From Aphrocallistes beatrix (lineage: Eukaryota > Porifera > Hexactinellida > Sceptrulophora > Aphrocallistidae): 64,000 bases of DNA. Positions within the stretch are counted from its first letter, which is position 1. Every line of letters starts with the position of its first letter. This document shows positions 15,025 through 45,351 of this stretch, piece after piece. The position numbers were made by a program, and so were the translations under genes. The stretch spans positions 2,355,550-2,419,549 of the forward strand of contig OY725493.1 in the NCBI GenBank assembly GCA_963281255.1, in the 5' to 3' direction. A model generated the notes under the pieces. That model did not search any database. It was not told the origin of the DNA and saw only the letters and a program-made list of their open reading frames with translations.

Positions 15025-17844
15025 CTAACTGAGGTAGGGAGGAGGCTTGTCCACGGGTTCCTGGTTGAGACACAAGTACTCAGGGGCTAGTGAGACCATT
15101 TTGAGAGTTTCATCAGAACTCAACTCGATCAAATAATCGGTAGGAAGGAGCGAATTGGAAACAGGAAGCAGAATCTGCACATCATCAACCTGTTTATAGA
15201 ACTGAGTTGGATATTCTTCCACTGAGAAGGAGAGTCTACCTCCATTCCTCTCCTCCCCACGCAGCCTCCCCTTGAGAGAGAATGCGCTGCCGGGAGAAAT
15301 GAGCGAGTTAAGAGGTCGGCGTGTGCCACACACTATATTAATGTAGAGAGGAGGGGCAGACGCAAGGAGCTCTTCTAGCCTGTCCACATGAGAAAGGTCG
15401 TTTTCAGACTCAGAGCTTGAATCGGAGTCAGATAGAAGCAAGTGTTTGTGGTTCTTATACAGCTTCTCAAACTCCTCACTATCTGCCTCGGGTAGGTAGA
15501 GTGATTCGAATTCTTTGAATAATTTCTTTTCCAGCCTCCGTTTCCTAAAGTGGAAGAACAAATGTCTCAGGCACCAGAATGCCGGGATGTAGCAGCAGTA
15601 GAGGAAGAAGCAGAGCCCCCTCAGCAAGGCCACGATGCTCAGGCGGGAGTTCACCATACAGGTGCAGTTGTACGGATCATCCCACCAGGCCTTGTTGACG
15701 GGAAGCCCGCTGCGTAGCCGTGTCCTCATCTCGCCCCTGTACTTGCTTCTCGCCTCTTTCGCTCCGCCGCACAGCCCGTTGCAGTAGGAAGGCCGGATGA
15801 AGGCCGAGTTTTTGTGAGCCCTGAATGACCCCATGCTCTTCTCTTCGCGACTGCGCAGCTTGAGACAGAGGATGTGGAAGTTCTGGTAGAGATAGGAGCA
15901 GAGGTTCTTCAAGGCGTAGAGCAGCATTTTCAGCTCAGGAATGCTGAACTCGCCGTTCACTACCATTTTGTACACGCGGATGAAGACCAGCATGATGCAG
16001 CTGATCCCGCAGATGCAGACCAGGCAGATGAGCGGGAGGAACCGAATCACGTTGACAAGAAAATTCTGAATTCCCCCGAATAGCGCGCCCTCGATAGCAG
16101 CCACGGCCCGGTCAATGAACTGGCCCACATCGTCCCAGCTCGTGTAGCTGCCGCCCAGTGCGATGTCCACCTGACTCACGTCGCTCTCATTCACGCAGAA
16201 CTCCGACAAGTAACGAGCAAAGGTCATGTTGCTCCTGGTAGCGTTCCCGCCAGCGGACTCATCGGAGGAAGGGAGGGAAGAGTTGGCTCGGGTGAGGTTC
16301 CCACAGGAACAAGGGCAGTAAGCAGTGCAGAAGCAAGTGGAATACGTCTCAAAGCTGAACTCGATCTCGTGCAACAGGTGCCCCTGCCTGTTTCGGAGAT
16401 AGGCAGTGCACTGGTTCTCCCGGAACAGGGGGTGGTGCGAGTAGATGGTGTAGTTGACTGACACCGAAGCCCCGGGGTTCAGGGTGAGTATCCTCCCATG
16501 CGGGAGCTCGATCCCCGGGGAGCACTTGTACACGCCCAGGTGGTACGAGGCGGTGAGGTTCCCCTCATTCAGCACCAGCAGCATCGCGTTACCATGCTGT
16601 GTGAGAGCTTCGAAGTCCTCCACAAACGCAGACACTATCCGCGCCTGTGAGTTGTGGATCACGAACTGGAGCTCGTCCGCACTCAGGGTGAGGACCAGTT
16701 GGGAGCGGCCCAGGTCTTGGTTCTCAAACTGAACCCTGTAGTCCTGGAGATCCCCCGGGTTGTCGGGGGGCGGTACCAGTTTGCCGTAGTAGGAGAGCAG
16801 CCCGCTGAAGGAGCGGCCATTCCGTCTTCTCCGGTTGTTCACTGCCCAGATGTCCTCCGCTTGGTTGAGGAGGCAGCTACCGTTGCGGAGGGAGCAGAAC
16901 TGCTCCTGATGCCTGAACGCTTGGAACCAAACTCCCACCTTGTTGCACTGAGTCCCAGACAGGTCCACCTGCTCCCTGTCCAGCACCAGCCAGTCGCCCT
17001 GGCCTCGCCGCAGCTCCTCGGAGCCGCCGGCGCTGGCTGGGTCCGGCGCGAGCAGAAGTTTGGAGTGGAGCGAGAAGAAGTGCGCCTTCGGAGCGAACTC
17101 TCCATTCAGCTCCACGCGCACCTGTCCGTCAAGCAGGGAGCGCCGTGAGAGACTGGGCCCCACCACCGCCTCTCCGACCCGGCGCCACCCCTCCTCGCCC
17201 CGCTCCGTCACGACCACGGAGATGTTGAAGAGGATCTGGGGCGCCAGGAACTCGAACACGTGCAGGAAGACAGGGTGCAGCCGCATGCAGTGCGCAGACT
17301 CGGACACGCCGATCAGGCCGCACTGCAGCTTGGAGCGCGCCCACTGATGGCTCTGCTTCAGTTTCTCCCAGAAGCCGCACTTGCAGCAGCGCCCGTGAGA
17401 GTCGGGCACTTTCTGTCCGTCCAGCACTGCGGTCCCGCACACCTCCCGGCCGCTGTAGATGTTCTCGTCGCAGCCGTTGAAGTAGAGGACCTCCTCGCGC
17501 GGTTTGTAGTTGACTCGTCCTATCTTGCGCAGCTTATAGGACACCAGAGATCGGGACTTAGAGATGGAGATGCGGATCGGTTTCTTCAGTAGGGAGGTCC
17601 CATCCTCTCCTGCCACCTTGGACACCAGCTGAGATTCCAACTTCTCACCTCCCCCTCCTCCCGAAGGGACGGACACGGCTATGACCAGCTTCTTCGAGCA
17701 GGGAGATCCATCCCGCCTCTTCACTTGAGTGCCTCTGCCTAGGATGCAGGTCTCTAGGGAACTCTTGGCGATCAAGTCGAAACAAACACACGCTGGAGAC
17801 AAGAGTAGGAAGTATAACAAACAAAGTTTGATTGATGCAGTCAT
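15025..17844 (-). CDS. HAP2: HAP2/GCS1 gamete fusion protein
   Basis: This 939-aa single-exon gene encodes a type I membrane protein. It has a signal peptide (residues 1-21, MTASIKLCLLYFLLLSPACVC), a Cys-rich ectodomain and a transmembrane helix at about 597-622. The HAP2/GCS1 signature region is at about 460-515, including ENQCTAYL and the Cys-dense STCFCTAYCPCSCG. HAP2 is a class II fusogen that merges gamete membranes, usually on the male gamete. The cytoplasmic tail of about 315 aa has a second Cys/aromatic hydrophobic stretch at about 735-755 (LCFFLYCCYIPAFWC) followed by basic RKRR, then an acidic Ser run (SDSDSSSESE). Base composition is much more GC-rich than the flanks. It sits 194 bp downstream of SMARCD and 205 bp upstream of the coiled-coil gene. 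Confidence 0.95.
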   Translation of the reverse strand: MTASIKLCLLYFLLLSPACVCFDLIAKSSLETCILGRGTQVKRRDGSPCSKKLVIAVSVPSGGGGGEKLESQLVSKVAGEDGTSLLKKPIRISISKSRSLVSYKLRKIGRVNYKPREEVLYFNGCDENIYSGREVCGTAVLDGQKVPDSHGRCCKCGFWEKLKQSHQWARSKLQCGLIGVSESAHCMRLHPVFLHVFEFLAPQILFNISVVVTERGEEGWRRVGEAVVGPSLSRRSLLDGQVRVELNGEFAPKAHFFSLHSKLLLAPDPASAGGSEELRRGQGDWLVLDREQVDLSGTQCNKVGVWFQAFRHQEQFCSLRNGSCLLNQAEDIWAVNNRRRRNGRSFSGLLSYYGKLVPPPDNPGDLQDYRVQFENQDLGRSQLVLTLSADELQFVIHNSQARIVSAFVEDFEALTQHGNAMLLVLNEGNLTASYHLGVYKCSPGIELPHGRILTLNPGASVSVNYTIYSHHPLFRENQCTAYLRNRQGHLLHEIEFSFETYSTCFCTAYCPCSCGNLTRANSSLPSSDESAGGNATRSNMTFARYLSEFCVNESDVSQVDIALGGSYTSWDDVGQFIDRAVAAIEGALFGGIQNFLVNVIRFLPLICLVCICGISCIMLVFIRVYKMVVNGEFSIPELKMLLYALKNLCSYLYQNFHILCLKLRSREEKSMGSFRAHKNSAFIRPSYCNGLCGGAKEARSKYRGEMRTRLRSGLPVNKAWWDDPYNCTCMVNSRLSIVALLRGLCFFLYCCYIPAFWCLRHLFFHFRKRRLEKKLFKEFESLYLPEADSEEFEKLYKNHKHLLLSDSDSSSESENDLSHVDRLEELLASAPPLYINIVCGTRRPLNSLISPGSAFSLKGRLRGEERNGGRLSFSVEEYPTQFYKQVDDVQILLPVSNSLLPTDYLIELSSDETLKMVSLAPEYLCLNQEPVDKPPPYLS

Positions 17845-18038
17845 AAGTTCGGTTTAGTCTTACACAATCATATTTTTCTCAAATAAATGAACTCGCGAGA
17901 AGAAACCAGATGGAAGGAGACTGCATTTTGATTGGACAGAATTAAGTCAATTAAGAAGGAATGGATTTTGAAACCTTTTGAATTTATAAAGTGAAATTAG
18001 TAAATATATTAATTAATTTCAATCACATTAAATTTGCA

Positions 18039-19538
18039 TCAATTGAATGATGAATTTCTCACAGTCTTCTCAATCTCTTGCTTCCTGCTGTGCACTTTGA
18101 GGTAGATGTACTTTCGGACGGCATCGGACGTCCAGTCCCCCTGGTAGCTGTCGGATCCTCTCTCCGCATCCGGCTTCCTGTCCAGCTCCTGCATCACTTT
18201 CAGGTCCCGCGTCTGGGAGGCCATCCAGTCGGAGAGGAAGCGCCGCGGCTGCTGCGCGTAGGCCAGGAAGAACTCGCGGCTCTGTCTCAGGTTGCTGATG
18301 TGCTCGATCTGCTCCCCGATCATCTGGTCCAGGGTGGCGATGTCCTGCTGCGGGTGGTTGATGTTCTGGATGAACTGCTGCACCATGGAGTACGTGGGGT
18401 CCTCCAGCTCCACGTCGATGTCGTAGACGGAGAACTGCTTGTCCAGCGCCTCGCGACTGATCATGTAGTTCACCACGATGGGGTCGGGGGCGCTGAAGTG
18501 CGGCTGGAGCGCCTCCAGCAGCTGAGAGAACTTGAGCGTGTCCACGGAGAAGATGGCCCTGAGTCTGTCGTCCAGGTTGATCACCTCCTTGTTGTGCGCG
18601 TCCTGCAGGCCCTGCGTCTTCACGTAGTTCCACAGGGCCAGCAGCACCCCCTGCTGGCTCTGGATCTGAGTCCCCAGCAGGCCGGCCAGCATGGGCTGCA
18701 GCTGGAAGCGCGGCGGGTCGTAGAGCACCTGCAGCAGGATGTCGCACTTGACGGGGCGGTAGTCGCACATCCTCTTCACCACGATCCCGTCCTTCTCCTC
18801 CTGCGGGCTCTCCTTGCGCTGCCAATCCAGCAGGTGCGAGTCCGGCCCGAACAGCTCGCTGTCCAGCTCCAGGATGACGCTCCGGAAGAAAGTGGAGAAC
18901 TTGGCCTTCGGGAGGCTAGCCTCGTCCGTGTCGGGGGAACCCGGGTCCAACAGCTTCCCCTCTATCTTCAGCTCCCACTGCAGGTTGTCCGCGGGGGTGG
19001 CCGGCTCGATGTAGCTGTGACTCACGTACATGCGCAGCTTGCGGGGCAGTTTGTAGCTGTTCTTGTCCTTCACGTTGTGCTCCAGCTGAGTTTTGATGCG
19101 CTGCAGAATCCCGTCCAGTCGCTTCTCCAGCATCAGCAGCTGGTGGTAGTTCTCCCCCTCCGGGACGAAGGAGCGGATTTGTCTGGGGAGGACGCGGTCC
19201 GAAGGCTTGTATCGCTTGGACCTCGGCATCATCACCTGACCGGAAGGCATTCGTGGCATCCCCTTCAGCTCCAGTCCGTGGGAAATGGGCGGCTTCCTCT
19301 TGACGCCGGTGTGGGTAGCTGAGGTTGCAGAGGACAGAGGGTGCATATTGGACACAAGGTTGGAAGAGTAGTCATGAGGGGGGTAGGAGAGATTGTTGGG
19401 CAGGAGGGGGAGACGTGGGGGCTGGTTAGATCCGGGAATGGGCGGTCTTCTCATTAAGCTAGTGGGGAAATTCGGCATAGCTCCTCCCGACGGAACACTT
19501 GTGGATGGAGGGAAGGGTTGATTCGGGTAAGATGCCAT
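18039..19538 (-). CDS. SMARCD: SWI/SNF subunit SMARCD/BAF60
   Basis: This intronless gene of 499 aa has the usual family length. It has a Pro/Ser-rich N-terminus, then the conserved basic stretch (MPRSKRYKPSDRVLPRQIR), an N-terminal core with RKLRMYVSHSY, and the SWIB/MDM2 fold at about residues 274-352 (FQLQPMLAGLLG through LQPHFSAPDPI). The C-terminal coiled coil follows (IGEQIEHISNLRQSREFF, about 415-440). SMARCD links the BAF chromatin-remodelling complex to transcription factors in the nucleus. GC content is high, and no intron interrupts a gene that is usually multi-exonic in animals, so retroposition or intron loss is possible. The ATG 19538 gives the expected MASYPNQP start. It stops in TGA. 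Confidence 0.97.
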   Translation of the reverse strand: MASYPNQPFPPSTSVPSGGAMPNFPTSLMRRPPIPGSNQPPRLPLLPNNLSYPPHDYSSNLVSNMHPLSSATSATHTGVKRKPPISHGLELKGMPRMPSGQVMMPRSKRYKPSDRVLPRQIRSFVPEGENYHQLLMLEKRLDGILQRIKTQLEHNVKDKNSYKLPRKLRMYVSHSYIEPATPADNLQWELKIEGKLLDPGSPDTDEASLPKAKFSTFFRSVILELDSELFGPDSHLLDWQRKESPQEEKDGIVVKRMCDYRPVKCDILLQVLYDPPRFQLQPMLAGLLGTQIQSQQGVLLALWNYVKTQGLQDAHNKEVINLDDRLRAIFSVDTLKFSQLLEALQPHFSAPDPIVVNYMISREALDKQFSVYDIDVELEDPTYSMVQQFIQNINHPQQDIATLDQMIGEQIEHISNLRQSREFFLAYAQQPRRFLSDWMASQTRDLKVMQELDRKPDAERGSDSYQGDWTSDAVRKYIYLKVHSRKQEIEKTVRNSSFN

Positions 19539-19837
19539 GCTAACACGACATTTAAGATATTATGTACAGTTTTTAATTATTAGTCCAGGTGATATGTATA
19601 AAAGACCCCTCATAATGTACATTTTATCAAAACCCCCAGCGTTTTAACATGTAAGATTAACACATACTACGTACATATGTTAACATGTGGAGAAACAATA
19701 AGTAAAAGCAAATCATTTCAAGATGTCGGATATGCTACCATAATTATGCAAGTATTTTTATGCCAAAATGATTAGAATCATTAAGGATAAATTTAATATA
19801 TTAACAACTACAAAGGGGAATTAAAATAAGCAAATCA

Positions 19838-19902
19838 GCGGCCGTATTCACTAAGAACTTAAGATCGATCTTAGTGCTTAAGATCTTAGTGAATACGGCT
19901 GC
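19838..19902. repeat. 65-bp near-perfect palindrome
   Basis: GCGGCCGTATTCACTAAGAA pairs with TTCTTAGTGAATACGGCTGC-type sequence across a central GATCGATC. This is a small foldback element in the upstream region of SMARCD. Confidence 0.8.
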
Positions 19903-20301
19903 AGTCTTTTAAGAGGAAACCTAAAAAGGGGTATCATCCCATGAAATTTACATATATTAAATAAGTTCATCCGCATGCGGATGTACGTCTATCCGCATGC
20001 GGGTATCGCATGCAGAAACAAATAATTACTAAATTAAATCCTTTCAATATGTGTGGTACTCTACAGGTATTCATGACTTAGATCTCTTTTCGCACCAAGG
20101 AAATGGCTGTAAATTTAGCAATTAAATATACTGGTTCTCTTTTCTGCAATCACCTATCTCATTAACTATCCACAAGGCTACACATTCTGTAACAAAATAT
20201 ATATGATCATCAGGGTCGGCGCAACAAGGTTTCCTGGGTGTCCGAACACCCACTGCCTTAAGCAAAGAATTGTAACAACATTATAATGTAGATTGTATTA
20301 C

Positions 20302-29925: not shown

Positions 29926-30053
29926 CTTAAATAAATACTGATTAAATTATTTTCAGTGCATATATACATACCTTACAAGCATACATACACATACATTCAC
30001 ATACATGCACATACATACACACAAATACGTACATACATGTAGGGTTCTATTTG

Positions 30054-30375
30054 GGGGAGACCCCCCCAAATTGACAAATTTGAAATAATATTTGGGGGGG
30101 TCTCCCCATTTTTTGGGGGGACCCCCCCATTTATATATCTCGGATTTCATTTGGGGGAATCTCCCCCATTTTTGGGGGGACCCCCCCAAATTGACAAATT
30201 TGAAATAATATTTGGGGGGGTCTCCCCATTTTTTGGGGGGACCCCCCCATTTATATATCTCGGATTTCATTTGGGGGAATCTCCCCCATTTTTGGGGGGA
30301 CCCCCCCAAATTGACAAATTATATGAATATTTGGGGGGGTCACCCCCATTTTTTGGGGGGACCCCCCCATTCACC
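30054..30375. repeat. 120-bp tandem repeat of G7/C7 blocks (left arm)
   Basis: Two nearly identical 120-bp units (30069-30188, 30189-30308) are followed by a variant partial unit. Each unit alternates TTTGGGGGGG and ACCCCCCC blocks with AT-rich linkers (AAATTGACAAATT). The right arm at 32270-32455 has about one unit, so the left arm has expanded. ORFs reading GGPPQ-type repeats here are artefacts. Confidence 0.92.
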
Positions 30376-36391: not shown

Positions 36392-36702
36392 AGTTGCATC
36401 ATATGTGAGGTATAATAATATACACATTCTATAAAAATTCCAGCTTTCTATCACTTAAAAATTAAAATGGCTGAGTTATCGTCAAAAAACTGAAATTTCT
36501 AATTATAAAAATGTGACAATGACGTCATAATTCCATGATGAGTCGACGTTTCCGTCTGAACTCAGAACTTAGTGGAGCCATAGCCAAAAGACTTCCACAT
36601 GCCAAAAATCAACTTTCTGGGCCTGACAGTTTCTTCAATCAATTCGTTACAGATATATATATATACACAAACAAACATTAAGAGTTTTAATAGTAAGGAT
36701 AT
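36392..36702 (+). repeat. Family A repeat, copy 9
   Basis: The body half of the family runs from GTTGCATCATATGTGAGG to CAATCAATTCGTTAC, then the TA-rich spacer and ATTAAGAGTTTTAATAGTAA. One TGACGTCA is present near 36521. The GC-rich end is missing. Confidence 0.88.
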
Positions 36703-36710
36703 ATTATATA

Positions 36711-37006
36711 TATATCATAGATTTTGGCATGTGGGAATATTTTAGCTATGGCTCCACTAAGTTCTGAGCTCAGACGAAAATGTCGAATCATCATGGAATT
36801 ATGACGTCATTGTCACATTTTTATAATTAGAAATTTCAGTTTTTCTACCATAACTCAGCCATTTTAGGTGATAGAAGGCTGAAAATTTAATAGGATGTGT
36901 ACATACCATATAATTAATCCATGTGACCCCAGGCGCCCGAAAGACGCCTCCGGCGGACACAAAGTGTCTGCCAGTCGCGCAGCGCAAGCAAGCGAAGCGC
37001 GCTTGT
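36711..37006 (-). repeat. Family A repeat, copy 10
   Basis: This inverted and internally deleted copy has one TGACGTCA (about 36801) and the full GC-rich hairpin end ending GCGCGCTTGT at 37006. It lies about 180 bp beyond the 3' end of the giant GTPase. Confidence 0.88.
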
Positions 37007-37187: not shown

Positions 37188-40100
37188 TTACTTGTCCGTT
37201 TTGTAGTTAATGTAAATCTGCGCTTGAGGCTTTGGTTTAATCGGGTTGAGATTGGGAACAGTTGGATTCTTAGGGTTTAAAGATTCTAGGGGACGTTTGG
37301 AAATCCGTGTTAGGGGGTTTGATTCCTTTAAGATGTTGGGAGTTTTAAGACTTCTAGATATTATGGAACGCCGGAAAGATTCAGGGTGAGTGTTATTAAG
37401 GTGCCTTTGTTTATCATATCCAATTTTTAACTCATCCATTTTATCTCTGAAATTTGTTTTCCAGTCGATTCGACAACCCTGGCTACAATTTCCTTTAGCT
37501 GTAAAGACATCAAAGTGTCCATTTGTAGGCTCCACATACGAGTGATCAATAATGTTTTTAACTCCTAATCCCGTTTTCCAATCGCTTTCTGTCGCTGCTG
37601 AAGCTAGACCATGTAACATAGCGGATTCATTTCCTTCACCATATAAGCTGATGTTTTGTAGAAAATGTTCTATACTCTTCTCATCTGAAGTAAACTCAGA
37701 ATTATATGGAAATCTTTCAGTACACTCTTGATCATCGAGACCATGACCGTGGTATATGATTACTCTAAAATACGCCGTTCCTTCATTTGTATATCTTTTC
37801 ATGGAGGATGAAACATAATATTTATAATAACTTGAGCCAAAAGATACACATTTCTGGTTCGCCCCATCAATAACAAAACAGACGTAATAATTGGGAATGA
37901 ATAAAGATTTATATATCTCCTCAGGAGAGGTATAAGGAATGTATGTAATATGTATACCTTTATTGGAATAATACTTAAGAATTTCCCAGCCGAATTTATT
38001 CCAGATATTTTTCATTTTGTCGCGGTTCTTTCTCTGTAAAGCTACATATTTTTCATCTATGGGAAGGCTCCAATCCCACTGGTCTCCGCATTTCTCTTTA
38101 AACTCAGACCACTTCATGTTCTGCCCTGGTGTGAGCACTGGTGTATCATCCATGTAGTCTTCGCACATGAGCAATATTGCAGTTCTATCTTCGTTAGTAT
38201 TCCAGACATTCCCTCCCATTGAGCATAGCTGATGACCGGTCATTATCTGGCACTTACCTCCATGGGGATGGATTTCTCTCTCGCAAAATTTTCCACAACT
38301 AGGACACTGATATGGACAGTTAATGACGTGGGATTCAAATTGCTCTTTTGTAGCTTTTAAAATATTTTCATATTCAGCTTCGGTTACGTGATATTTATAA
38401 CAATTTAATGTACGCAAGAATTCCAGCACGTATACCTTGATGTTGAAAATTGTTTCAGTACACCTGAACATATTTGTATCAGTTAACATGTTAAATATGT
38501 CCTCATCTAGTACGTGTGTTTGGTTAAACGGTTTTTCAAATAACACGTAGGTGTCATGGTGCTTTTGCATTATAACACTATCTACTTCAAAGCTACCGTT
38601 GAATAGATTGTTGAACTTTTCTGGACTTACTTTTGGATCGAGGTATTTCTCCAGAAAGAGTACCATTGCTTTAAATGGACTCTCTCTTGATTTACTAGCA
38701 GAATCTTGTGTCGCTGCTGCTTCAGGAACTTCAAAGTTGCTATCTGAATCGGTTCCTACTTCATGGAGACGGTCTTTTTCTGCACACATACGTTCAAGCC
38801 CCTCTAAGAATTCTGTTAGGGCAGATTTGACTATTGCTATTTGTTTGAGAAATATTTTTTCCATATTCTCTACAATTCTGCGATAGAGTTCATTTGCAAC
38901 CTTTCGCCATTCTTCTTGAAACACTGTTTTCAGGGCTTGGATCCGATTGCATATGAACTGAACAACGAAGTTGTTGCTTTCACTAATCGGTTCGTTTGGG
39001 TAAGACAGTGGTGTAATAAAAATATTTGGCTGTGGTGAAAATGAATGTTCTTCGTTGATTAGTTCGTTTGGATAACGTTGTAGTTCTTTTGTTAGCTTGT
39101 CATTTGCAAGGAGCGAAATACTTTGGTGTGAAAGCATGTGTGCATTCTTATCGAAATATTCTTCTTTGATGCTCCGTACACACGCTGTTTTCACTCTTCT
39201 CCAAACAGCTGCTAGAAAGTCGCCAGTGAATTTATGAGCTATTGACTGATCGCCCTTTCTCATTTCCTTACGATCCCAATTTCCTCTAGTCAATTTCCGA
39301 TTTTTAACTTTTTGTAAGAAATATATAAAATTTTTTTCCTTTTTCTCAATTTCCCTAGATTTGTTTTCTCGTTGTTTCTCAAATTTTGTTTCCAGGAGGG
39401 ACTTGAATGCGAAAGCGAAGGCATAGGTCGAGATTGTCCTCTCAGCAGCATTTGTCAATTTTGCTTCGATAAAATTAATTTCATAATTTACCACTTTGCA
39501 GATGTGACACAAAAAGTCTACGATCTCCTTTACGGTTGAGTGAGAAATACTTGGATCTCTCTTTATGAACTCCTGAACACGTTTTGATATGTCATTGAGA
39601 AATTTATCCCAAGTGCTTCTCTCAAAATTATTGGGATCTTTTAGTTGAGATGCTAGCAATATTATCTGCTTCCTCTTCTCAAGCTTCCAAATGATATCAG
39701 GATGATTGTAATAACCAGAACAGTATTTGATCAGTGGATAACATTCTTTTGGAACCCAATTGAGAAAATTTAGATTAGGTTTAGCGATCTGAATAACATT
39801 TTTTCTTCTTTTCTTATATTTCGTATTAAATAAAGATTCTTTATTTAGGTATTCACACTTGACTTTCCCTGTGTATGGTGTCATTTCCTTTATAGGCACT
39901 CTATTCTCCTTCCAAGGATATATGAACTTATCTATTCTTGCAAAGTTGTCTAGCCCTCGACAAAAGAGTGAAAACATTTCTTCGCCAAGTAACTTTACTA
40001 TGTTATCCATGTCAAAATTTAAATTACGGAATCTGATTAGAATTGTTTGTTTGTTTTCCATCGTTTTGGACTCCATCCTGAAAACAGAATACAAGTTATC

Positions 40101-42365
40101 AAATTTTTCATCAAGTTCAGCTTCTTCTTCTTCTTTGTTGTCACTATCAAAGCACCTTTTCCAGACTTTTCCAAATTCATTAGTTTGTTCCTCGATGTTT
40201 AACTCGAAAAATCTGTCTGCATTCTGCTCAATAGCATCTTGGAACTTCATCATGCTCTCTGATAGTTTTATCTCACTCAGTCTAGCTTTGATTGCTAAAT
40301 TGAGTTTGTCTTCATAAATCTTTTTCTCCATGTAGATAAGTCGGCATAAGTTTGATTTAGTTTCATCACACATATAATCCATTCTTTTGAGTAATGAATC
40401 AGCTTGACATTGCGCTGCAAAGTCGGTAAGTGCTATTTCCAGATATTCATTGAATACATCGTCCAACTCCTTTTTCACACCTTCTAGTAGTACTTTTGGA
40501 GGACTCCACTCGGCAATGTTCTTCACTGCAAGGATCAATCTTTCCGTAATTTCTCGATATTTTTCTTTATTAAAATGAATTATGTTTTTCATTAAATCAT
40601 TCACTAACTTGCTAAGCGAGATGCTACACTTTAGTTCGTCAGAATTTCTGTATTTTACTACGTCCTGGTATTTGACGATAGTATCCCAAACAACACCAGA
40701 CATTTCCATCCATTCACTCATTGTGTTAAATGGCATTTTATAATCATGGGTCATTTTGCTGAAATCCGTTTTATTATCATCTATCAGTTGGTGGATGATG
40801 GATATTCGTAAATCAGCACATCCGATTGAGAAACTAATTGTCGGGGTTAACTTATATAAGTCAGAATCAAATTGCTTGGCCATTTGAGTGTTCAAAGATT
40901 CTGAGTTGAATGCAGAAGGAAGTACGAACAAATTTTGCTTCGACACTAGGATTAGATCTGAAATCTTCAATCCTTCTGTTTCCATAAGATACGATTCTTC
41001 ATTGAGTTTCTCCAAAAGAGTATTGATCGAATCTAAATGTTTATCTGGATCAGGATCTGCTTGTTGGTTTAGAACAAAGAATATCTTGGGAGCTGCTACC
41101 TTATTCACTTTCAATTTGTAAAGAGAGTAAGAACATATTTGTAAAAGATTACGCATTTCTTCTCCGAGATCTCCTTTTACATTGATTATGGCTACTTGCG
41201 AGACTGCTAGACAGAACAGAACCATCGTTCTGTCAAAGCTTATACAAGAGCTATCCTGAAAGGCCCTTCCTTTTTCAATTGCATCCAATCCTTCTGTATC
41301 GAGAATAAGGAAATGATCAGAATTGTTAACTGGTTGGCTCAACTTTGAAAGAGATGCATAGACCCCCTTTGTACATCTGCCAGCACTAGTTAAGAACTTA
41401 CAACCGAAGCAGTAATTCAGTAACGTCGACTTTCCAGAACTCTGAGGCCCGAATATGCTCACAACTATGGGCGGCCTTTTAATTCCATCAGTTGCACTTT
41501 TTTCATAAAATTGGTTCCCATAGAAATTTGATAATAAAACATTAATGTCTTGGTTAAAGAACCTGAGATTATCTCCATCAATCAACTCAAAAGGCTCTCC
41601 TCTCTCTACATGGTTACTGAAGTTTGCTGAAAAAAGTTCAGGATAGTTACCTCCAGGTTTATCATAACTAATAGTTTCATTGTATTTACTTGACAACAAT
41701 GCCTCTCTCCAGAGAAGTTCTAAAGTGTATGATGTTTTCTTATTTACTCCCACTAGCCGTTGGGAGAGTATTTTGAATTCCTGAGATAATTTCCACAAAA
41801 TGAGCGGGGAGTTTTCCTCAGCTAGGATGTCATTGAAGTACCATACAATCGCATTCATTTCAGTATTTTGGAGATGGTTAGAGAGTTGTTCACATTTTTC
41901 ATTCAGTTTATCGATAGTCTTTTGGTCTGTTTCGTTTAAAGCATCATAGTAGCAACACATGTATTCGACAAAATGTGGATAGTAACTTAAGAACGAGAAA
42001 TCTATATTAGCAGTAATTTGAGTATTCGTATGGATATGACTTTTAATATTGTCGACTAATACTTTCTCTCTCTCTAGATTGTCCCAACTACCATATCGAG
42101 TGATTAGGTTTTCGAGGAAATTGCTTCCAACTGATCTCAGGCTTTCAATTGTCGGATGTAAAATCATGTATCCAATTTTTTTCAAGGCTAATAATAATTT
42201 AATATCCTGTTCGATTAAATGAGGAATGAAAATAAATGTATATGTTTCACTTGTTCTATCACTTATTGAAACCTGCTTAGTAGTTAGCTCAGTTCCCATA
42301 CAATCTCGAACGAATATATATACATGCTTAGTGTTGAGTGTGATTGTATTTAAGTCTTCCTCCAT
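37188..42365 (-). CDS. VLIG/GVIN-type giant GTPase, main body
   Basis: This uninterrupted frame of 1725 codons ends in TAA. The G domain lies at about residues 300-450: P-loop GPQSSGKST (about 308-316), the TKG switch (CTKGVY) and DTEGLDA (about 355), typical of very large inducible GTPases, which lie next to the dynamin/septin-like GTPases. A long helical region follows. At about 1345-1385 a Cys/His cluster (CPYQCPSCGKFC, HPHGGKC, HQLC) matches the zinc-binding block near the C-terminus of GVIN proteins. From about 1490 to 1620 the order YVCFVIDGANQ, FRVIIYHGHGLDDQE, FTSDEKSIEHFLQNIS and LHGLASAATESDW fits a VWA fold whose metal site DxSxS is lost. Vertebrate relatives are interferon-inducible cytosolic proteins. 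The upstream frames 42369-43547 and 43548-44009 are in the same phase and probably belong to this gene. Confidence 0.85.
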   Translation of the reverse strand: MEEDLNTITLNTKHVYIFVRDCMGTELTTKQVSISDRTSETYTFIFIPHLIEQDIKLLLALKKIGYMILHPTIESLRSVGSNFLENLITRYGSWDNLEREKVLVDNIKSHIHTNTQITANIDFSFLSYYPHFVEYMCCYYDALNETDQKTIDKLNEKCEQLSNHLQNTEMNAIVWYFNDILAEENSPLILWKLSQEFKILSQRLVGVNKKTSYTLELLWREALLSSKYNETISYDKPGGNYPELFSANFSNHVERGEPFELIDGDNLRFFNQDINVLLSNFYGNQFYEKSATDGIKRPPIVVSIFGPQSSGKSTLLNYCFGCKFLTSAGRCTKGVYASLSKLSQPVNNSDHFLILDTEGLDAIEKGRAFQDSSCISFDRTMVLFCLAVSQVAIINVKGDLGEEMRNLLQICSYSLYKLKVNKVAAPKIFFVLNQQADPDPDKHLDSINTLLEKLNEESYLMETEGLKISDLILVSKQNLFVLPSAFNSESLNTQMAKQFDSDLYKLTPTISFSIGCADLRISIIHQLIDDNKTDFSKMTHDYKMPFNTMSEWMEMSGVVWDTIVKYQDVVKYRNSDELKCSISLSKLVNDLMKNIIHFNKEKYREITERLILAVKNIAEWSPPKVLLEGVKKELDDVFNEYLEIALTDFAAQCQADSLLKRMDYMCDETKSNLCRLIYMEKKIYEDKLNLAIKARLSEIKLSESMMKFQDAIEQNADRFFELNIEEQTNEFGKVWKRCFDSDNKEEEEAELDEKFDNLYSVFRMESKTMENKQTILIRFRNLNFDMDNIVKLLGEEMFSLFCRGLDNFARIDKFIYPWKENRVPIKEMTPYTGKVKCEYLNKESLFNTKYKKRRKNVIQIAKPNLNFLNWVPKECYPLIKYCSGYYNHPDIIWKLEKRKQIILLASQLKDPNNFERSTWDKFLNDISKRVQEFIKRDPSISHSTVKEIVDFLCHICKVVNYEINFIEAKLTNAAERTISTYAFAFAFKSLLETKFEKQRENKSREIEKKEKNFIYFLQKVKNRKLTRGNWDRKEMRKGDQSIAHKFTGDFLAAVWRRVKTACVRSIKEEYFDKNAHMLSHQSISLLANDKLTKELQRYPNELINEEHSFSPQPNIFITPLSYPNEPISESNNFVVQFICNRIQALKTVFQEEWRKVANELYRRIVENMEKIFLKQIAIVKSALTEFLEGLERMCAEKDRLHEVGTDSDSNFEVPEAAATQDSASKSRESPFKAMVLFLEKYLDPKVSPEKFNNLFNGSFEVDSVIMQKHHDTYVLFEKPFNQTHVLDEDIFNMLTDTNMFRCTETIFNIKVYVLEFLRTLNCYKYHVTEAEYENILKATKEQFESHVINCPYQCPSCGKFCEREIHPHGGKCQIMTGHQLCSMGGNVWNTNEDRTAILLMCEDYMDDTPVLTPGQNMKWSEFKEKCGDQWDWSLPIDEKYVALQRKNRDKMKNIWNKFGWEILKYYSNKGIHITYIPYTSPEEIYKSLFIPNYYVCFVIDGANQKCVSFGSSYYKYYVSSSMKRYTNEGTAYFRVIIYHGHGLDDQECTERFPYNSEFTSDEKSIEHFLQNISLYGEGNESAMLHGLASAATESDWKTGLGVKNIIDHSYVEPTNGHFDVFTAKGNCSQGCRIDWKTNFRDKMDELKIGYDKQRHLNNTHPESFRRSIISRSLKTPNILKESNPLTRISKRPLESLNPKNPTVPNLNPIKPKPQAQIYINYKTDK

Positions 42366-42368
42366 GCG

Positions 42369-43547
42369 TTAATAGTTCTCAACATAGTCTGAGTAACTAA
42401 CATGAATTAATGCTATATCCAAGTTTTGACAGATATCCTTAATGACCTTTATATCTGAACATCCGTGACAATCTAAATATGCCCATTTTGTGGATTCATC
42501 ACTAGTTTTCTTTATTTGTCCGAAAAGATTTTTTGTCATCTGAATATCAATGGAATTCATATGGAATGGACTCTTTTGGGGACTACGCTTTACAAAATCA
42601 GTTTCAAATATTAAATCAACTAACTGGGATTTCCCAATAGGATTCCAGGAAGCCCACCCTAACCCAAACGAAACCAAACCAGTAAATTGTTGAAGAGAAT
42701 ACCAGAGTTCTTTACAAATTTCGAATCGGATAGATGTTTCCTCCCGAAGATGGGATTCAAGGATTGGATAATAGAATGGGACTGGATTACTGAATGAATA
42801 GTGTTCTAGACAGAGACCTCTAACTACGGAATCTGACATTTGAAAGATTAAATGAAATATGTCCAGCGTAGTTAGTGATATGTTAGTTATGCTCACGATT
42901 ATTCGTGTGAGTTCTTCTAAAGGCAAACTGCACTTGATATAATAGAATGCCAGAGGCAAGAGCTCTTTAAATATCCTATTTAGTGACTTCTCTTCCATAC
43001 TTTCTGCGTTCTTGATTAAGCTATCGAATGAATCTGAAATAATCATTCTGTATGTAGTGTGTGGTATTTGTGTATCTCCTCCAAAATTCGCTTCTATTTT
43101 TTGAATTTGCTTCAATTGTTCTTGTGTGAAATAAATTAAGAGATTTATATCTGGGTCGTACTGGAGTAAGTAATTACGAATCACTCCTTCGATTCTATTC
43201 AGTTTTATGCTGAGTTCTCCTATATCGTCCAGACTGCTTGCTCTGATGCGTGTCTTAGCTTCAATGCTCAGAATCTCGTCGATTTCAAAGAAGTTTTGGG
43301 ATTCTTCGAATTTTAGAAAGTATCGCTTAACATCTCTATAATCTCTCTCATTTCTCTTGGGTAGTTCACAGCATATTTTTTCTTGAAGTTTGACGTTTGT
43401 AGTTATAATCATTTCTCTCAATTTCATCATTGGATATTCCTCAAAATGTTTGTTTAAGATTTCAAAAATCTTAGCCCCTTCTTTTCCGTAGAAAAATATG
43501 AATGTGTTCTCAACATATTCTCTAATCTTCTTTTCAGATAATGCGAG
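42369..43547 (-). CDS. VLIG N-terminal segment, separated by one in-frame TAA
   Basis: The frame is open from 43547 (first Met 43430) to TAA at 42369-42371. One codon (CGC) follows, then the ATG of the main body, in the same phase. About 40 codons before the stop, the segment SFGLGWASWNPIGKSQLVDL, then FHMNSIDIQM, fits the degenerate first GTP-binding-like block of URGCP/VLIG proteins (family pattern: F.R.G...SKS.LLN, then G..EI.W). This strongly suggests that it is the N-terminal half of the same protein. Translation would need a short intron, readthrough or a functional allele without the TAA. Otherwise the locus is a recent pseudogene. Confidence 0.75.
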   Translation of the reverse strand, partial: LALSEKKIREYVENTFIFFYGKEGAKIFEILNKHFEEYPMMKLREMIITTNVKLQEKICCELPKRNERDYRDVKRYFLKFEESQNFFEIDEILSIEAKTRIRASSLDDIGELSIKLNRIEGVIRNYLLQYDPDINLLIYFTQEQLKQIQKIEANFGGDTQIPHTTYRMIISDSFDSLIKNAESMEEKSLNRIFKELLPLAFYYIKCSLPLEELTRIIVSITNISLTTLDIFHLIFQMSDSVVRGLCLEHYSFSNPVPFYYPILESHLREETSIRFEICKELWYSLQQFTGLVSFGLGWASWNPIGKSQLVDLIFETDFVKRSPQKSPFHMNSIDIQMTKNLFGQIKKTSDESTKWAYLDCHGCSDIKVIKDICQNLDIALIHVSYSDYVENY

Positions 43548-44009
43548 TTAGTTCCCAATTTCTGTTATTGAGAAGCCATCGTTATATTTTTCTTTTATTG
43601 TTATTTTTTCTAACTCGGTTAATGAATTTGTTTCTGAATACGCTAAATAAGCAGAGACAATATCTCTGTGAATGCCGTACGATAAGGCAGTCTGCTGTGG
43701 ACTTTCCAGTGGATTTTCTTTGACCATCAATTCAAATTTCTTAATTTCCTCTTTAGAAATTTGCTTGATCTTGAAAGCCTGCAATACATCTAATGCATCT
43801 TTCGCAACGCTGACTTTCATTGACAACCTTTTTGCTAAAGCTTCTGGGTAATCGACAAAATCTTGCCCATGCTCCACTATAAATGCCACATTTTTTTCTG
43901 ATAGATCCAGATCGAAAAGTCTATCTGCTAATGACTCTTGTTTCTCAATTTCCTTGACATCCGAGTTTTTAAGATATTTTCCCACAAAATTGCCCACTTC
44001 TTTGAACAT
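43548..44009 (-). CDS. N-terminal HTH-like segment of the VLIG gene, ends at a second TAA
   Basis: This frame of 153 codons from ATG 44009 is again in the same phase, ending in TAA 43548-43550, and the frame is open on both sides of it. It is helical, with two repeated helix-turn-helix-like units: one around SPQQTALSYGIHRDIVSAYL, the other DGFSITEIGN-(stop)-LALSEKKIREYV. The second unit spans the stop codon, so the TAA falls inside a domain and most simply replaces a sense codon (CAA, GAA or AAA). An alternative is a short A-rich intron ending just after CTGAAAAG with ACTAAC as branch point. Upstream exons may exist. Confidence 0.6.
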   Translation of the reverse strand: MFKEVGNFVGKYLKNSDVKEIEKQESLADRLFDLDLSEKNVAFIVEHGQDFVDYPEALAKRLSMKVSVAKDALDVLQAFKIKQISKEEIKKFELMVKENPLESPQQTALSYGIHRDIVSAYLAYSETNSLTELEKITIKEKYNDGFSITEIGN

Positions 44010-45351
44010 TCCAGTAACCTGTGTACAAATCTATACGATTAAAGCTCAATATTTATGGTTCACTCCTCGCTAAATGATGACGAATTGAATTTAACAATCA
44101 ATCTAAGTATTCAGTAGTACTGCTGAAAATGTAGCTAATTGTTGATAAGTAGAACATGTACAATCAAAATTATGATGGTTTCTAATGATAAAATTCAGTA
44201 AAATGGACAGAGTAAAAAAATTTTCTGCATAGACTTGTTAAACCATGTTCCTATCTCCAAAATTCCCCGAAATGGTCACATAGATCAACATCTTGGAAGT
44301 GGATTTTTACAAAATTTCCAACCTCCCTCCATTTGTGTCAGCCTAACTCAGCGAGTTTTGAAGATATCTTGATTATCTCATTGTTAATTGAAACAGAATC
44401 AACTCAGCTTTCAGATAACTAGCAAAATACGGCCATCTCTGTGAGTTATAGTGTTTTATAGTTCGAACATCCTGGAATTTTGAGAGAATTTGAACTTTGA
44501 AAACGTTATAACTCAGAAAAACGCTGATCTGTGATGATTCTATGTCGATTGGTGCCGAGAGAATCAAGATATCTTCAAAATTGCTTGAGTTATTCAGCAA
44601 AAAAAATTATAAGATAGGAAATTTTGCAAAATATTCCTTTCCAAGTAGTTGACTCATGTGACCATTTTTGTACGCTAAAATCCTTCTTTGGAGTTTTTGG
44701 GGGTTTTGATGAATAATAACAAAGTTTGACAAATTCTACGCCGAAAGCAAAGCTTTTTTGAATTCTGAAATTTTGTCCTTTTGACCGAATGTTTAGTCAA
44801 CTTTAAAATATTTAAAACAGAAATAGAATACACAGTTTCCTTCCTTCCTATTACTGTTTGTTACTTTTCTGACTTACCGAAAGGAATCGTGATGGTATGA
44901 CAGATTGCAAGAACTGCGATTTACTAATATCTGTGACTCATTGTAAACTCGTTACGTATAACTTTAATATTAAAATTCAATGATTTTTATTTGTTTGTAT
45001 GTATTGATTGAAGATCTCGGAGATGCTAGAAATATAAAATTGGGGATGCAGGAATAAAATAATTCTTAGTTTACAAAGGATCTAAGTGAAATTTTCAGAC
45101 CTCACCGAGATAGGAGACAAATTGTGCAAACCAATGAAATTTGATTGAGTATTTTATGCTACAGATTGTTTTAAAACTAAAGTACTTTAGTATGTATACA
45201 TTTGCGATGCATACTAAGGGACTTTTCGAGATGAAAATGCTAATAAATTTAGAAATATTTTACTTATCATATCATCTTATATCTTTTTCAGGTAAGAAAT
45301 TTGTAATTTCTTGATTGCTATGATAGTTTATATAATGCTCGTTTCTATATG
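44010..45351. other. Upstream region of the VLIG gene, with foldback
   Basis: An imperfect inverted repeat runs about 44190-44710 (TTTTGAAGATATCTTGATT at 44351 against AATCAAGATATCTTCAAAA at 44563; GGTCACAT against ATGTGACC). No other gene-like content. Confidence 0.5.

Follow-up and report, generated by a model that had tools for sequence, protein, structure and literature searches.

Two premature stop codons in a giant VLIG/URGCP-type GTPase gene of Aphrocallistes beatrix probably mark a recently disabled family member

The window, that is, the whole stretch of 64,000 nucleotides analysed here (contig C7:2355550-2419549), carries on its minus strand, between positions 37188 and 44009, what is very probably a full-length copy of a VLIG/URGCP-type giant GTPase gene, encoded in one giant exon and recently disabled by two nonsense substitutions (probability about 0.92). 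As the first of these stops would end the protein at residue 153 or earlier of 2,273, ahead of the GTPase domain, the allele present in the assembly should be null; a full-length protein would not be expected from it, and its transcript would probably be subject to decay. Most likely, the copy is thus nothing out of the ordinary, belonging to a gene family of known kind and having been disabled recently. Its parts are given below in the order in which they are read.

43551-44009, minus strand: N-terminal piece, which starts at the first in-frame ATG and runs for 153 codons until the first premature stop, aligned with paralogues
43548-43550, minus strand: first premature stop, TAA, codon 154 of 2,273
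42372-43547, minus strand: middle piece, 392 codons, its two best full-length matches being 72-73% identical and both on contig C10
42369-42371, minus strand: second premature stop, TAA, codon 547 of 2,273
37191-42368, minus strand: C-terminal piece, 1,726 codons, containing the GTPase domain match and with its first ATG at 42363-42365
40998-41603, minus strand: URGCP/VLIG-type GTPase domain, a match to PF25683 at residues 256-457 of the third piece
37188-37190, minus strand: native terminator, TAA followed by C, after the C-terminal residues INYKTDK, which are similar to those of intact paralogues

The sequence-only reading had described three minus-strand frames in one phase, separated only by two TAA codons, and the stop map confirmed this. 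The stop-to-stop frames at 43548-44030, 42369-43547 and 37188-42368 share a common phase, in which the two internal TAA and the terminal one are the only stops along 2,273 codons and no frameshift is found. The two remaining minus-strand frames contain 173 and 222 stops, compared to about 171 expected from base composition, showing that the open phase is not there by chance. As the C-terminus of the gene is similar to that of intact paralogues, the three frames constitute one complete gene. The second premature TAA is followed by CGC ATG, as had been noted. By eye, at 44007-44018, the first ATG of the near paralogues corresponds to GTT in the window copy, whose own in-frame ATG follows three codons later, and paralogues L013 and L016 seemingly also lack the first of these ATG.

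The third piece matched PF25683 (URGCP_GTPase) with 95.8 bits (cut-off 55) and RHD3_GTPase with 49.9 bits (cut-off 42.4), supporting the earlier assignment to the VLIG-type giant GTPases, and PF25683 was also matched above the Pfam cut-off by the intact paralogue L024 (99.6 bits). When solved structures were searched with this piece, three matches were obtained, to SEY1 (E 1e-7), GBP2 (7e-4) and GBP1 (3e-3), all of them in the GTPase region. Ahead of the second stop, over 545 residues, nothing matched Pfam above cut-off, and the HTH-like motif that had been placed at the first stop drew no match there either; the region around this stop is a conserved family segment with a putative fold only. 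Two further suspicions raised by eye, namely N-terminal HTH repeats and a GTPase domain in degenerate form around the second stop, gained no usable support from profile comparison and were dropped. HTH units 1 and 3 reached a probability of 0.8 and the GTPase 6.2 at best, the higher scores of 95.3 and 68.5 stemming only from residues common to both cuts. A relative in viral contigs was also looked for, with eight stretches fitting the pattern and none confirmed.

Regarding the surroundings of the gene, a MITE-like inverted-repeat element lies just upstream, at 44270-44667, with related stretches on many contigs (at least 75 match rows from the 40 of 63 candidates that were scored, three of the rows being the element itself), and a second, nested inverted repeat with 145-nt arms that are 92% complementary lies just downstream, at 36418-36904. 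Nine frames of the window were scanned, six of which matched HAP2-GCS1, SWIB, copper type II monooxygenase, OTU, ankyrin repeats and an ion channel, a set in keeping with animal DNA. The match to the gamete fusogen HAP2-GCS1 extends over 942 aa in a single frame at 15025-17853 (307 bits), beside a single-frame SWIB-domain protein at 18039-19559 that we take to be SMARCD-like; GC content is 0.55 at 16001-20000. At 29953-30318 the translated frame contains recurring units of about 40 residues in which GGSPQKWG/GGPPKKWG is abundant, and this is probably a tandem repeat.

The gene belongs to a large family in the assembly, which comprises 100,537,919 bases (100.5 Mb) in 28 contigs. With the third piece as query, at least 33 matches were obtained (27 of 133 candidates scored), and the 392-aa middle piece yielded 71 (all 74 candidates scored), from which about 63 VLIG/URGCP-type giant GTPase loci were counted, window copy included, once the six weakest rows (E above 1e-43) had been removed and two pairs of pieces manually joined. 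By our own count, 19 of the 63 loci lie within an open frame of at least 2,150 aa and have a match without internal stop, and several loci are found on each of contigs C2, C3, C4, C10, C14 and C15. Among the matches obtained in the assembly, the gene itself excluded, identity to the window gene does not exceed 74%, except for one fragment of 26 residues at 77%.

Besides the window copy, 26 paralogues were read. Open single frames of 2,184-2,430 aa were found in 15 of them, 11 from a near subfamily (L009, L010, L012, L013, L014, L016, L017, L020, L024, L026 and L029) and four from a distant one (L027, L030, L033 and L034). These copies are called intact in the sense of a frame open from stop to stop, with predicted starts; counted from the first in-frame ATG, L020 has 2,041 aa and L030 has 2,111 aa. 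The other 11 carry stops, frame breaks or deletions: a stop is the sole damage in L031, one frame break is present in each of L018, L021, L023 and L028, L022 is a shortened copy, and several breaks or large losses affect L011, L015, L019, L025 and L032. With 11 of 26 paralogues damaged, the window copy looks like a product of routine birth-and-death. As a side observation, frame breaks in the damaged copies number about ten, and four of these (in L011, L018, L019 and L021) lie in the last tenth of the protein, around codons 2,090-2,180 of the window gene; loss of the C-terminus is perhaps tolerated, the pattern having been seen post hoc.

For a comparison of the two stop sites, the window copy was aligned with 17 paralogues, 15 intact and two damaged. 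Among these, members of the near subfamily have D, E or Q in the column of the first stop and S, P, F, D or A in that of the second, and members of the distant subfamily have I, V or L and I, F, P, S or L, respectively. All 15 intact relatives have sense codons at both sites and thus lack the disabling lesions of the window copy. The nine further damaged copies were followed by tblastn, seven of them reaching the first site and eight the second, all with sense residues, so that damaged copies with a sense codon amount to 9 of 11 at the first site and 10 of 11 at the second (L015 reaches neither and L025 misses the first). Over all covering paralogues, the first site shows D, E, Q or K or, for members of the distant subfamily, I, V or L, and a stop was found at neither site (24 of 26 paralogues covering the first and 25 of 26 the second). 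Within 30 codons on either side of both sites, the alignment of the 11 near intact copies comprises 1,342 cells, one of which is a gap and none an insertion. Therefore, given the sense codons and the nearly gap-free alignment, both TAA are single-codon point substitutions in ordinary coding sequence. Editing of TAA to a Trp codon was also considered and rejected, as W occurs at neither column in the 17 aligned paralogues.

Selection on the gene was analysed with a GY94 codon model implemented in our own script (2,143 codon columns, 18 sequences, IQ-TREE tree). The terminal branch of the window copy showed an omega of 0.228 against a background of 0.261 (2dlnL 2.26), although this background is uneven, with several near branches clearly higher and the long distant branches lowering it. 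The intact L024 gave 0.227, the other ten near intact copies 0.256-0.486 and the four distant ones 0.100-0.336, and for the stop-bearing copies in the tree the values were 0.289 (L011) and 0.306 (L031). By piece, the window gene yielded 0.250, 0.195 and 0.235 (2dlnL 1.94, 0.59 and 0.76 against the background of each piece), so that each of the three was under strong constraint when the branch is taken as a whole, and no difference in selection among the pieces was seen in a piece-wise fit of 6 of the 18 terminal branches. Likewise, 674 columns do not vary among the other near intact copies; the window copy has changed 24 of them, compared to 9 to 35 for the 11 near intact copies themselves. 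Thus, no relaxation is visible on the branch to the window copy, and the loss of function is probably recent. These values describe the whole long branch rather than the interval after the stops arose. Relaxed constraint usually marks a pseudogene, and its lack here would fit a recent loss and equally a gene still in use.

The age of the loss was approached in two ways. When a neutral tail was added to the branch with the earlier omega left free, the best fit was 0, and two log units were lost at 0.08 per codon (branch 1.38); with the earlier omega fixed at 0.20 or 0.18, the best tail became about 0.02 or 0.06 per codon, which corresponds to an older loss. The age limit therefore hinges on the assumption made for the earlier omega. 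The second estimate came from the lesions themselves. Nonsense changes make up 5.6% of the neutral point mutations in the window frame, and two nonsense changes with no frameshift place the maximum-likelihood estimate of the neutral tail at 0.005-0.009 per codon, or 0.0016-0.0030 per site (0.16-0.30% neutral divergence), with 0.0015-0.032 per codon as the 95% range, under three indel:substitution ratios of 0.05-0.15 that were assumed rather than measured. Under these same ratios, both lesions would be nonsense with a probability of 0.09-0.32. Overall, the lesions are in keeping with a recent loss. Against a recent null, then, it can be held that two nonsense changes without a frameshift would be mildly unlikely under neutral decay, and that the loss would be older if the earlier omega were in fact as low as 0.20 or 0.18.

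Of the four options offered by the sequence-only reading, the paralogue comparison upholds a recent pseudogene or a segregating null allele and speaks against tiny introns and programmed readthrough. That both TAA sit on a null allele still segregating with an intact one is a tentative possibility within the recent-null reading. The loss seems recent, relaxation not being visible, and five paralogues show a single visible break (in the frame in L018, L021, L023 and L028, a stop in L031), as could be expected from sampled alleles of a polymorphic family. However, no near-identical copy was found in the assembly (the identity limits given above apply), and a haplotype that has gathered two lesions is suggestive of an age beyond the very youngest. 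In one assembly, a fixed pseudogene and a segregating null would look alike.

The remaining explanations fare much worse. Separate expression of the pieces, notably of a 1,725-residue GTPase protein starting at the ATG just past the second stop, is very unlikely: this ATG does lie one codon beyond the second TAA and the GTPase domain match is in the third piece, but the same Met is present in the intact L010 and L013, making it a family residue and not a new start. Moreover, two upstream frames would need to be bypassed, and the first and second pieces have been as constrained as the third over the branch. There is a similarly slim chance of a sequencing or assembly error at both positions; the lesions are isolated, as errors would be, but two independent substitution errors that both create TAA in one gene would hardly be expected in an assembly whose 28 contigs are long. 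Continued use of the gene, with low-level readthrough of TAA or translation of the third piece alone producing a regulated form of a giant putative immune GTPase, would be an equally improbable outcome, and the idea draws on the human GVINP1 having proved to be a working gene.

Programmed readthrough of both stops to yield a full-length protein is extremely unlikely. The frame is fully open between and beyond the stops, with all pieces constrained over the whole branch, and both internal TAA are followed by C, a base held to favour leakiness, which follows the terminator in only two of the 15 intact copies. Nevertheless, the true terminator of the window gene is likewise TAA followed by C. Thus, although TAA-C is uncommon at the ends of the family, it is also the gene's own termination context and gives no good reason to call the internal stops leaky. 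Constraint over a long branch is in turn no proof of constraint after the stops arose, and the absence of a stop at either site from every covering paralogue rules out a readthrough signal shared by the family. The terminators of the intact copies (seven TGA, six TAA and two TAG) agree with the earlier view that reassignment of the code is unlikely.

The excision of both TAA as two tiny in-frame introns has a negligible probability and is rejected, as the paralogues align across both sites nearly without gaps and conserved codons would be lost. The branch-like words ACTAAC and TTAAC are indeed present close to the stops, as had been pointed out, but they are weak evidence, occurring 4 and 12 times, respectively, in 6,843 nt. 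In-frame GT..AG pairs of 40-160 nt exist at the first (6) and second (20) sites, but the intact paralogues have no extra or missing stretch at either one. At the first stop, the candidate that sacrifices the fewest conserved columns would take out 31 codons, of which 14 are conserved; at the second, it would take out 19 codons, of which four are conserved, in a stretch free of gaps in 11 paralogues. The donor patterns searched for were found in a single candidate at the first stop (159 nt) and in none at the second.

A recently disabled copy offers a clean example of a giant putative immune-type gene soon after its disabling, in an animal whose genome of 100 Mb holds about 63 loci of the family, and the size of this family is more notable than the two stops. 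The expansion suggests a fast-turnover repertoire of giant GTPases in an animal possibly far from vertebrates. Should the null allele still segregate, the gene would provide a tractable case of gene-content variation in invertebrate immunity. No literature on VLIG in sponges or Amphimedon, or on a VLIG pseudogene with a stop codon, was found in PMC, and for VLIG in invertebrate GTPase evolution only a prawn transcriptome paper was retrieved there.

With respect to known systems, families of immune genes under birth-and-death evolution contain recent pseudogenes with isolated lesions in an otherwise constrained frame and with intact sister copies, and the window copy shares isolated lesions, a constrained frame and intact sisters with them. 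VLIG stands for very large inducible GTPases, and inducibility by interferon or infection and an immune role are part of the definition of the class; a very large protein (more than about 2,000 residues) encoded in one exon is a criterion for VLIG/GVIN/URGCP. The family described here has this architecture in the 15 open paralogues and, apart from its two stops, in the window copy, and it also shares with VLIG/GVIN/URGCP the URGCP-type GTPase domain PF25683 above cut-off (window copy and L024) and the presence of many paralogues, several of them broken. It differs in the 545 residues of the window copy up to the second stop, which are without Pfam match above cut-off. The closest precedent for the status of the gene is human GVIN1, once filed as the pseudogene GVINP1 and reported to be functional and to make a working antimicrobial protein (PMC11974893). 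Both are giant-GTPase genes given a pseudogene label, and that case is a warning against calling giant-GTPase pseudogenes on annotation alone. In contrast to the human gene, the frame of the window copy is broken by two premature stops, and its classification as a probable null rests on these stops, at sites where the frames of its relatives are open.
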